Positions 12,902 through 15,130 of a stretch of 33,635 bases of DNA are shown one piece after another. This stretch comes from Burkholderiales bacterium (GTDB lineage Bacteria > Pseudomonadota > Gammaproteobacteria > Burkholderiales > Burkholderiaceae_E): assembly GCA_947463885.1 (NCBI GenBank), contig CANHUQ010000007.1, forward strand, positions 1 through 33,635, written 5' to 3'. Under the pieces are notes generated by a model, which was not told the origin of the DNA, searched no databases, and worked only from the letters and a program-made list of their open reading frames with translations. How positions within the stretch are numbered: the first letter of the stretch is position 1; each line of letters starts with the position of its first letter. The position numbers and the translations under genes are program-made.

Positions 12902-13570
12902 TTACTTGCGCGGTGGTTCGGCACCCCGGTTGCCCGGCATGGCGGCGCCGTTACCGGCTGGCGGGGGCGAAGGAATAGCCGGAGGCATCGCGCCCATCGC
13001 GGGCGCTGGTGCGCCCGAGGCAGCCGGGGCAGCCGATGGTGGCGGCACGCCCAGTTGCTTGCCCATGAATGCCTCCAGGGTCTTGAGCTTCGGCTCAATC
13101 TGGCTGCGGGTTTCGTTGACCAGCTTCTCCGACAGGGTGCGCTGCATACCCGGCACGAGCTGGTTGAAGCGCTTGATCACGGGTGATTCGAACCAACTGA
13201 TCAATTGCTTAAGCTCGGCCTCGTTGAAGTTGCTCTCAAGCTCTGCGCCAATCGTGGAGGGCGTCAGGGCAATCGCCTTATCACGCAGCAAAGGCACCGC
13301 CTCGTCGGCATATTTCTTGAGCTCGGCGTCGATGGCCTTGACCACGCCCTCGCGCTTGTCGGCCGGAACGTTTTGCAAGTAAGGTCGTGCGGCCATGGAC
13401 ATCTCGATGGCCGGTCGCTCGGCAATCGTGCGCGCCATCGCTTCAATGCCAGGCTGTTGCAACGCCAGCACCTTGTTGACAAGTTCTTTTTTGGTCTGAC
13501 TTTGCGCGGGCGCTGCGAACAGGGCCAGCGCAGCCAGTGCAGCCGACGCGATGCGAACGGTGACGGTCAT
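12902..13570 (-). CDS. Exported DUF2059 domain protein with Pro/Ala-rich tail
   Basis: ATG 13570 is chosen over upstream codons because GAGGGAGAG sits about 6 bases before it and a signal peptide starts there (MTVTVRIASAALAALALFAAPAQSQ, cleavage near residue 25). The 222-residue product has the helical DUF2059 domain at about 85-160, recognisable by FNEAELKQLISWFESPVIKRFNQLVPGMQ, the family's conserved helix pair. Residues after about 175 are a low-complexity Pro/Ala/Gly/Met tail. A periplasmic location is inferred; the biochemical function of DUF2059 is unknown. It converges with the acyltransferase and diverges from the sigma region-4-like gene. Confidence 0.85.
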   Translation of the reverse strand: MTVTVRIASAALAALALFAAPAQSQTKKELVNKVLALQQPGIEAMARTIAERPAIEMSMAARPYLQNVPADKREGVVKAIDAELKKYADEAVPLLRDKAIALTPSTIGAELESNFNEAELKQLISWFESPVIKRFNQLVPGMQRTLSEKLVNETRSQIEPKLKTLEAFMGKQLGVPPPSAAPAASGAPAPAMGAMPPAIPSPPPAGNGAAMPGNRGAEPPRK

Positions 13571-13657
13571 TCGAACTCTCCCTCGTCGCCTCGGGCGCAC
13601 CCCGCGAGGACCGGAACGGTCATGCAAACAGGGCACAGGGCGGATCGGAAGCGGAAA

Positions 13658-13685
13658 AGTTTACCTCAACGCCCACCACAGTCGA
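13658..13685 (-). promoter_or_regulatory. Candidate promoter of the DUF2059 gene
   Basis: On the minus strand TCGACT (plus 13680-13685) and TAAACT (plus 13658-13663) are separated by 16 bases and each match four of six positions of the sigma-70 consensus. The start of transcription would fall about 80 bases before the gene. The match is weak and was found by eye. Confidence 0.28.
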
Positions 13686-13705
13686 TCGACACCTGCGCAC
13701 GGAGC

Positions 13706-13722
13706 AGGCACGGTTCGTGCCT
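13706..13722. repeat. Short perfect inverted repeat (7-bp arms, 3-base centre)
   Basis: AGGCACG (13706-13712) and CGTGCCT (13716-13722) flank GTT. It lies in the same divergent intergenic region as the larger repeat at 13793-13827 and about 135 bases before the DUF2059 start. Confidence 0.6.
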
Positions 13723-13792
13723 CGCTTGGTCGGTGGGCGATCGCGCTGTGTTGTGGTTCGGCGCAGTCGCCCGGGTGCCGTGATACGGACGC

Positions 13793-13827
13793 CACCCCAC
13801 TGGCTCACCTCTTGAGCCAGTGGGGTG
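13793..13827. repeat. Perfect inverted repeat, 15-bp arms with 5-base centre, before the sigma region-4-like gene
   Basis: CACCCCACTGGCTCA (13793-13807) and TGAGCCAGTGGGGTG (13813-13827) are exact reverse complements around CCTCT. There is no T-run on either side, and both flanking genes point away from it, so a terminator is unlikely. A weak promoter-like pair, TTGAGC (13812-13817) and CATATA (13835-13840), 17 bases apart, would place the -35 inside the right arm. An operator or a strong leader hairpin are the two main readings. The remaining bases of the 315-base gap 13571-13885 hold no credible gene. Confidence 0.8.
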
Positions 13828-13885
13828 CGAGCCTCATATACGGACAGATCCGGGCCAGCGCCCGACCCCATCAGAGGCCAACATC

Positions 13886-14128
13886 ATGCCGACCGACACC
13901 GCAACGTTTGCCCCGCGCGCCATGCTGACCCCAAACGAGAGCACTGTTTTGCGGCTGCGCTACGGACTGGGTGCCGAAGACGCCGCCACTGGTCTCACCT
14001 TGGTTGAAATCGCCCGCCAACTAGGTGTCTCCACCCAACGCGCCAGCCAACTCGAAACCAGCGCGCTGGCCAAGCTTCGCAGCGCGCTGCGCGAACGAGG
14101 CGTCACATCCGTTGACGACATCCTCTGA
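13886..14128 (+). CDS. Small stand-alone sigma-70 region 4-like DNA-binding protein
   Basis: ATG 13886 is chosen because AGAGG lies about 9 bases upstream; an open frame continues to 13820 but overlaps the inverted repeat. The 80-residue product is nearly all one domain: LTPNESTVLRLRYGLG at about 14-29 matches sigma-70 region 4.1 (LTPREEKVLRMRFGIG-like), and TLVEIARQLGVSTQRASQLE plus SALAKLRSAL at about 38-68 match the region 4.2 helix-turn-helix. Sigma region 2, which binds the core enzyme and opens the -10, is absent. The C-terminal RERGVTSVDDIL also resembles a sigma tail. It could bind -35-like DNA or the RNA polymerase beta flap as a co-regulator, or be a LuxR/sigma-4-like regulator. There is no ECF or anti-sigma partner next to it. 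Confidence 0.82.
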   Translation: MPTDTATFAPRAMLTPNESTVLRLRYGLGAEDAATGLTLVEIARQLGVSTQRASQLETSALAKLRSALRERGVTSVDDIL

Positions 14129-14155
14129 GCGTCACGATCCCAGGGGCAACGCAGA

Positions 14156-15130
14156 CTAAGGAACGATCAGGACCTTTCCGGTCACCTTGCGGGCGCCCAT
14201 GTCCAGCAACGCCTGGGGCACCTGATCCAGCCGATACGTGGCTGAGATATGTGGGCGCAGCTTGCCTTGGGTCAGCAATGCCATCATCTGGCGCACATCT
14301 TCCTGATTCGCCTGCGGTTCACGTCGGGTGTAGTCGCCCCAGAACACACCCACCACCGACGCGCCCTTGAGCAACATCAGATTCAGCGGCAGTGCGGGAA
14401 TCTGACCATTCGCGAAGCCCACCACCAGATAGCGCCCGCGCCAGGCAATCGACCGGAAAGCGGGCTCGGCATACTTCCCACCCACCGGGTCGTAGATCAC
14501 GTCCGGACCCTTCCCGTCCGTGGTGCGCTTGATGGCCTCGCGTAAGTCTTCAGTTTCGTAATTGATGGTGGCGTCCGCGCCATGCTCACGGCAGACCGCC
14601 AATTTTTCCTCGGTGGATGCGGCTGCAATCACGCGCGCGCCGCGGGCCTTGGCAATTTCGATCGCCGAAATACCCACGCCGCCGGCGGCACCCAGGACCA
14701 GCACAGTCTCGCCCGCCTTCAGTGCGGCCCGATCGGTCAACGCATGCCAGGACGTGCCATAGGTGAGCATGAAAGCTGACGCCACGTCATAGCCCAGACC
14801 GGGCGGCAGTAGCACCACCTTTTCAGCCGAGGCAATGACCTCCTCGGCAAACGATCCATGACCCGTGCTAGCCAGTACGCGATCACCAGCCTTGACATGG
14901 GTCACGCCCTCCCCCACCGAGATGACATCACCAGCGGCCTCTGATCCCGGCGAGAACGGACGCTCGGGTTTGAACTGATACTTGTTCTGGATGATCAGCA
15001 CGTCCGGAAAATTGACGCTCGCTGCACGCACCCTGATGCGCACCTGGCCAGGCCCGGGTTCACGCGCCGGAATGTCCTCTAGCACCAGTGATTCCGGCGG
15101 GCCCCATTCTTTGCACAGCACAGCTTTCAT
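14156..15130 (-). CDS. Zinc-independent quinone oxidoreductase (NADPH:quinone reductase, MDR family)
   Basis: This 324-residue protein belongs to the QOR branch of the medium-chain dehydrogenase/reductase superfamily. The N-terminal GroES-like domain starts MKAVLCKEWGPPESLVLED and contains AASVNFPDVLIIQNKYQ and PGSEAAGDVISVGEGV; the catalytic-zinc Cys/His ligands of alcohol dehydrogenases are missing, as expected for QOR. The NADPH-binding fold has GAAGGVGISAIEIAKARGARVIAAAS. It would reduce quinones or enones in the cytoplasm. The ATG has a GGAGG ribosome-binding site 8 bases upstream. It is divergent from the nitronate monooxygenase, with 148 bases between the starts, and converges on the sigma region-4-like gene. 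Confidence 0.9.
   Translation of the reverse strand: MKAVLCKEWGPPESLVLEDIPAREPGPGQVRIRVRAASVNFPDVLIIQNKYQFKPERPFSPGSEAAGDVISVGEGVTHVKAGDRVLASTGHGSFAEEVIASAEKVVLLPPGLGYDVASAFMLTYGTSWHALTDRAALKAGETVLVLGAAGGVGISAIEIAKARGARVIAAASTEEKLAVCREHGADATINYETEDLREAIKRTTDGKGPDVIYDPVGGKYAEPAFRSIAWRGRYLVVGFANGQIPALPLNLMLLKGASVVGVFWGDYTRREPQANQEDVRQMMALLTQGKLRPHISATYRLDQVPQALLDMGARKVTGKVLIVP

Follow-up and report, generated by a model that had tools for sequence, protein, structure and literature searches.

DriD of Caulobacter crescentus is described as an HTH-WYL-WCX protein that is activated by single-stranded DNA (ssDNA), flanks the sigma-4 domain and binds a 20-bp pseudo-palindrome overlapping the -35 position, the spacing to the poor -10 elements being constant; its regulon is SOS-independent and devoted to DNA damage and repair, with didA, bapE, recJ and dnaG as its own targets (PMC12340889). 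PafBC, the mycobacterial WYL activator of DNA-damage genes, is according to the same paper a heterodimer of which PafB alone contacts the promoter, at -24 (PMC12340889). SiwR of Mycobacterium smegmatis is a WYL homodimer that activates adjacent DinB-like genes from an imperfect palindrome of 19 bp situated in the region between -35 and -10 (PMC10693628). The WYL-fold proteins BrxR and CapW are tied to phage-defence systems, and BrxR is a repressor that uses an inverted repeat with a 5-bp spacer located downstream of its predicted -10 element (PMC9122601). Among the bacteria treated in these papers, SOS-independent WYL-driven damage regulons are characterised in few, namely Caulobacter and mycobacteria. 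The operator of the classical SOS regulon, the LexA box, is a palindrome as well; in the genus studied here it is of the CTGT-N8-ACAG type.

Analysis of a palindrome in a Burkholderiales genome, within a window of 33,635 nucleotides (the whole stretch of DNA that was analysed), points, by analogy, to a WYL regulon like that of DriD but in a different lineage as the best reading, with a new kind of member, a sigma-4 protein. The palindrome would be the operator-promoter of a LexA-independent damage regulon, would be bound by a WYL protein and would control, among other genes, a genus-specific stand-alone sigma-4 protein. We put the probability of this explanation at roughly three in four. With DriD the proposed system shares an HTH-WYL-WCX protein, a palindrome of about 20 bp over the predicted -35 position, a fixed distance to a weak -10 element and repair targets that appear to be SOS-independent. 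It differs from DriD in its lineage and in its targets, which are Mre11/Rad50-like genes, recC, DnaQ-Cho, ribonucleotide reductase and the sigma-4 protein. The two regulators are 20–23% identical in full-length fold alignments, and the likeness between them is drawn from domains, fold and promoter anatomy. As in PafBC, a WYL protein would activate DNA-damage genes, but from a palindromic site. The placement of the palindrome in the promoter recalls SiwR, but here the genes are many and unlinked. The WYL fold is common to BrxR and CapW, and the 5-bp spacer to BrxR; an operator of the BrxR/CapW repressor type, downstream of the -10 element and beside a phage-defence operon, does not fit, since the site studied here lies upstream of the -10 element and defence-type neighbours were seen at single-genome sites only. 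A palindromic operator of a DNA-damage regulon, as proposed here, also recalls the LexA box, but boxes of that type are not enriched near the sites described below.

The inverted repeat has the sequence CACCCCACTGGCTCA-CCTCT-TGAGCCAGTGGGGTG. Its arms (13793–13807 and 13813–13827) are 100% complementary over 15 bp, as the first-pass annotation had stated. This is the sole perfect hairpin with arms of at least 11 bp (loop 3–8) in the 33.6-kb window, and the longest arm in 40 order-1 Markov shuffles of the window was 12, compared with 15 bp in the real sequence. The features of the locus are as follows.

12902–13570, minus strand: divergent gene with a weak DUF2059 match (21.3 bits, below the cut-off of 23.6).
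13793–13827, no strand assigned: perfect inverted repeat with 15-bp arms and loop CCTCT; the outer arm is mostly unconserved in relatives.
13801–13819, plus strand: conserved putative operator core TGGCTCA-N5-TGAGCCA, predicted to span -40 to -22, recognized by conservation and recurrence.
13829–13834, plus strand: predicted -10 element GAGCCT, with A-11 and T-7 conserved (39/47 sites; 11/11 promoters of the sigma-4-like gene).
13841, plus strand: predicted transcription start, placed seven bases past T-7.
13873–13877, plus strand: possible ribosome-binding site AGAGG, from inspection of the sequence.
13886–14128, plus strand: gene of an 80-aa stand-alone sigma-70 region 4 protein (PF04545, E 1.9e-14).

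A terminator scan called nothing at 13793–13827 and the repeat is followed by no T-run. An intrinsic terminator, consisting of a stem-loop and a T-run, was thus ruled out, as had been expected from the start. No Rfam match at gathering score was found in the window. The loop CCTCT (13808–13812) is complementary to AGAGG in front of the start codon; this is probably a chance match, since transcription is predicted to start downstream of the loop.

The inner part of the repeat is kept in relatives. Each of the 11 genus genomes with a sigma-4-like gene has GGCTCA-N5-TGAGCC at the same place in front of that gene; the L006 copy differs by a single left-arm change. Outer-arm bases are mostly lost, so that only the inner part remains; in L003, L010 and L013 the two bases flanking the core still pair, with different letters. 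The gene upstream of the palindrome, judged by eye, differs by clade, being divergent in L003–L008 and apparently co-directional in L009–L013, and the palindrome stays with the sigma-4-like gene across clades despite this change. A-11 and T-7, read by eye, are conserved in 11/11 of these promoters. In the window the core is placed ten bases upstream of the -10 element, and the -10 element itself, GAGCCT, is a poor one.

The core recurs elsewhere as a promoter module. A search with TGGCTCA-N5-TGAGCCA at one mismatch or less returned 47 sites in the 12 genus genomes (2–8 per genome), compared with 2 for the reversed control. Although the -10 element was not required in this search, an A and a T at offsets 11 and 15 beyond one arm (A+11/T+15) were present at 39 of the 47 unique sites, while all other A/T offsets from 3 to 35 were occupied at 0–10 of them. 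Seven of the eight sites lacking the pair fall inside predicted genes (L072, L115, L123, L126, L127, L128, L129); of the sites that have it, at least three (L075, L077, L096) likewise coincide with predicted ORFs, which the gene predictor may have over-called. When core and -10 element were searched together, two mismatches or less gave 102 rows in the genus genomes and 6 control rows, some palindromes being counted once per strand. In a sample of 150 genomes of the order, one mismatch or less gave 60 rows in 35 genomes, 5 of them from the genome of the window, and 3 rows in the control. Orthologous sites make such counts non-independent; the classes of targets are independent. In a stricter set of sites the A and the T are present at 41 of 43, a count given no weight here because these positions had helped to select the set. 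The module recurs, with a fixed -10 element, in front of many targets, and across the order it is linked to WYL genes.

A+11/T+15 would thus correspond to A-11/T-7 of a -10 element at a fixed distance, and the core would span about -40 to -22, with its centre near -31, over the -35 position. The first-pass annotation had proposed the palindrome as an operator in a promoter, which its position and conservation support, and had pointed to a search for it in the genome and in relatives: the whole 35-bp element occurs once in its genome, the core recurs, and it is conserved in 11/11 cases. A dispersed REP-like repeat was ruled out, the 35-bp element being single-copy and most core sites having the fixed -10 element. 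The promoter that the annotation had drawn, TTGAGC-17-CATATA with its -35 element in the right arm, did not hold: it was missed by the consensus scan of 13400–14300, in which no sigma-70 promoter (TTGACA-16/18-TATAAT) was detected, the predicted -10 element is GAGCCT, six bases upstream of CATATA, and the -35 position falls under the palindrome centre. The element does lie in a divergent intergenic region, as described, but the palindrome side facing the gene at 12902–13570 is without A+11/T+15 and thus without a -10 element toward that gene; only the sigma-4-like gene is faced by one.

The predicted transcription start agrees with gene starts at other targets. In six of the seven DnaQ-Cho promoters with a module hit, the A of the start codon falls exactly on the predicted +1, the genome of the window being the exception; recC of the latter genome starts at the predicted +2. 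The six loci with ATG at +1 are L194, L195, L196, L197, L198 and L206, and their DnaQ-Cho nuclease mRNAs are apparently leaderless.

Two known promoter elements were compared with the module. LexA-type boxes, at one mismatch, were found near 6 of 91 module sites, which is about chance by estimate. The lexA promoters of the genus carry CTGT-N8-ACAG exactly in 7/12 cases and a CTGG variant in 5/12. This box is different from the core, and a LexA/SOS operator was therefore ruled out. A sigma-32 promoter (CCCCTTGA...CCTCAT) was considered, as the spacer at the sigma-4-like gene is often CCYYT. Against it, a search for TTGAGCC-N13-CCTCAT with one mismatch showed no enrichment (51 rows vs 47 in the control), and the spacer varies at other targets; the idea was dropped.

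Module sites were found before an operon of a Mre11/SbcD-like nuclease and a Rad50/SbcC-like ATPase, before recC in the genome of the window, and, mostly with two mismatches, before DnaQ-Cho. In five genomes, two-mismatch sites lie in front of ribonucleotide reductase (L192, PF02867) and of a Toprim/GyrB-C-like protein (L189). The L189 protein, of about 229 aa, combines a Toprim domain with a weak match to the GyrB C-terminus; the loci of this type are L188, L189, L190, L200 and L201. A further site precedes a small conserved protein adjoining pqiC, whose copy in the genome of the window has no Pfam match. This protein (L069:2083-2319; orthologues at L110–L114, L120–L122 and L125) has a C-terminal motif like FDAPTYxRRGIxIPELD, and by likeness to DidA one could speculate that it is a division inhibitor. 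Some sites precede genes that are not obviously for repair, and several sites with two mismatches have no assigned target. A lipoprotein-like gene follows a site in G001, G006 and G009 (by eye). Sites seen in single genomes lie, in G006, at one gene of the CRISPR NE0113 family and one with DUF3857, and, in G007, at a cytosine methylase; defence-type neighbours are confined to such single-genome sites. The G006 sites, L117 and L118 (C41 and C45), lie beside the CRISPR NE0113-family and DUF3857/transglutaminase genes, and L118 has a -10 element on both sides. Because the palindromic site recurs in front of DNA-repair genes, the data suggest that, apart from the classical SOS system, there is another response to DNA damage.

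The candidate binder is a WYL protein, encoded in the genome of the window at G000:C2:14212-15174. Eleven of the 12 genus genomes encode it, and in other families it has relatives of 46–60% identity. Its architecture is HTH-WYL-WCX, with matches to PF13280 (E 5.8e-21) and PF25583 (E 2.1e-15) and with HTH_DeoR at 19.4 bits, just under the cut-off of 21. When the G003 copy was used as a query, the solved relatives by sequence were PafBC and DriD, with PafBC 6sj9 as the best match (E 2.6e-18). Foldseek with the WYL model, which has a mean pLDDT of 76, placed DriD 8tp8 on top (E 4.2e-16, TM only about 0.42) and PafBC 9fnd at rank 6, followed by BrxR and CapW. In five genomes (L110–L114) the WYL gene comes third in the mre11-rad50 operon, which has a module site at each end, and it stands directly under a site at L211 (the second G047 copy), L222 (G082) and L232 (G049; the same site as L162). 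Outside the genus, where 18 of the 19 WYL loci returned were analysed (all but L157), palindromes at two mismatches or less and per-locus p<=0.05 were found in WYL flanks at 11/18 loci, compared with 0.9 expected, and neighbouring genes vary among these loci. A+11/T+15 is present beside 6 of these 11 palindromes and absent from 5. The WYL gene in the genome of the window lies about 1.6 kb from the small-gene site on C2, apart from the Mre11/Rad50 operon, and no recognisable site was found in front of it.

Since the promoter anatomy is like that of the DriD and SiwR sites, we infer a WYL activator that senses damage; that the WYL protein binds the site, that it activates and does not repress, and that ssDNA is the signal are parts of the same proposal. 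The core at 13801–13819 would serve a dimeric WYL regulator of the DriD/PafB kind as operator and would overlap the -35 position. DNA damage would expose ssDNA, to which the WYL protein would bind; in its ssDNA-bound form the protein would cover the -35 position and bring in RNA polymerase. As a result, a LexA-independent repair regulon would be switched on, comprising the Mre11/Rad50-like operon, recC, DnaQ-Cho and ribonucleotide reductase, with the small conserved protein and the sigma-4-like protein as further members. The proposed WYL regulon would exist alongside the LexA system. Among open-licence PMC papers, searched by title and abstract start, no description of it was found. For a regulon that appears to extend over several families of one order, the analysis provides an operator motif open to testing, a rule for the -10 element, a candidate regulator and a list of targets.

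With the same operator and the same regulon, the WYL protein might instead act as a repressor that blocks polymerase at -40 to -22 and is released upon damage, in the manner of BrxR. CapW, likewise, reportedly represses at defence genes. Both proteins are among the WYL fold matches, and a site over the -35 position could block polymerase. The inverted repeats through which BrxR represses have a 5-bp spacer, the same length as here, but their location downstream of the predicted -10 element of BrxR is different (PMC9122601). The activators DriD and PafBC outrank BrxR and CapW in the fold matches, and both the poor -10 element and the lack of a consensus sigma-70 promoter in 13400–14300 are as expected of an activator-dependent promoter. 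Repression, the chief alternative to the activator reading, is for these reasons considered unlikely.

It is also improbable, in our estimate, that the module is bound by another, unseen regulator and that WYL genes are just frequent members of the regulon. In favour of such a regulator, and against the WYL reading, stands G009, in which no WYL protein was detected by tblastn or PF13280 (the genome is 94% complete) and the ackA–small gene interval is too short to hold a WYL gene; the small gene, DnaQ-Cho and the lipoprotein-like gene of G009 still have module sites in front of them (L125, at G009:C528, is one of these loci). Good palindromes are also missing from 7/18 WYL flanks outside the genus. 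An unseen regulator would, however, leave the 11/18 palindrome-flanked WYL genes with varying neighbours to be explained. We raised our estimate for it, and slightly lowered that for the DriD-like WYL regulon, because the WYL gene in the genome of the window is apart from the Mre11/Rad50 operon and because 5/11 palindromes in WYL flanks are without a -10 element.

The protein encoded downstream of the palindrome matches PF04545 with 53.3 bits (cut-off 24.1) and has no other sigma regions. Similarity to orthologues starts at Met13 (13922) of the 80-aa ORF, which is possibly the real start of the gene. The gene is found in 11/12 genus genomes and is missing from G009. When a sample of 150 genomes from the order was searched with a profile, five genomes had matches at E<=1e-9: the gene itself and four in ORFs of 330–817 codons, presumably full sigma factors. 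A few hits of 41–44% in short open frames of 112–228 codons, mostly at contig ends by position, are presumably cut RpoD genes. A scan of genome contigs gave at least four loci at 43–48% identity. The search of viral contigs revealed no relative, and 115 plasmid records match the protein, the best 20 of the 115 being RpoD-annotated or unannotated. Judged by these searches, the stand-alone sigma-4 gene has so far been seen only in this genus. The best hits of its predicted fold (mean pLDDT 75) were sigma region 4 chains, none of them at E<=0.001.

The recognition helix, RERIRQ in RpoD, is TQRASQ or PQRASQ in the sigma-4-like proteins; the replaced positions bind -35 DNA in RpoD. In Caulobacter the -35 contacts are made by Arg624, Gln629 and Lys633 (PMC12340889). 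The first-pass annotation had named the 80-residue protein for a binding test; as binder of the palindrome, the protein would regulate its own gene. A helix-turn-helix sigma-4 domain is indeed encoded next to the palindrome, and TTGAGC looks like a -35 half site. This assignment is nonetheless very improbable: the -35-binding positions of RpoD are replaced, the module extends to other families of the order, in which the searches showed no stand-alone sigma-4 gene, and it is present in G009, which is without the gene.

A doubtful but testable idea is that the sigma-4-like protein is a damage-induced sigma mimic, which keeps the sigma-4 core, and has lost the residues that read the -35 element. 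Such a mimic could occupy the beta-flap of RNA polymerase or displace housekeeping sigma region 4 in some other way. If true, it would bias polymerase from -35-dependent promoters to -35-independent, WYL-activated repair promoters, which would make a two-part switch with both parts in one regulon. Placing a stand-alone sigma region 4 protein under probable damage control makes sigma mimicry during repair open to experiment.

That the element acts in RNA as a leader hairpin (a role the annotation had allowed for) or an attenuator is hardly credible, despite the perfect 15-bp stem of the window copy and the two core-adjacent bases, which in L003, L010 and L013 differ in letter and still pair, since the fixed -10 element downstream places the module upstream of the start, the inner bases are conserved in sequence rather than covarying, the outer arms decay in most relatives and there is no T-run.

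A second WYL paralogue, 47–48% identical, is present in some genus genomes (G007:C64, G011:C119, G005:C59). A variant element, GGGCTCA-N5-TGAGCCC, has CAGACT in place of the -10 element and was seen repeatedly, in G007, G008, G010 and G011 (L074, L076, L199, G008:C127) and could be either a terminator or a site.
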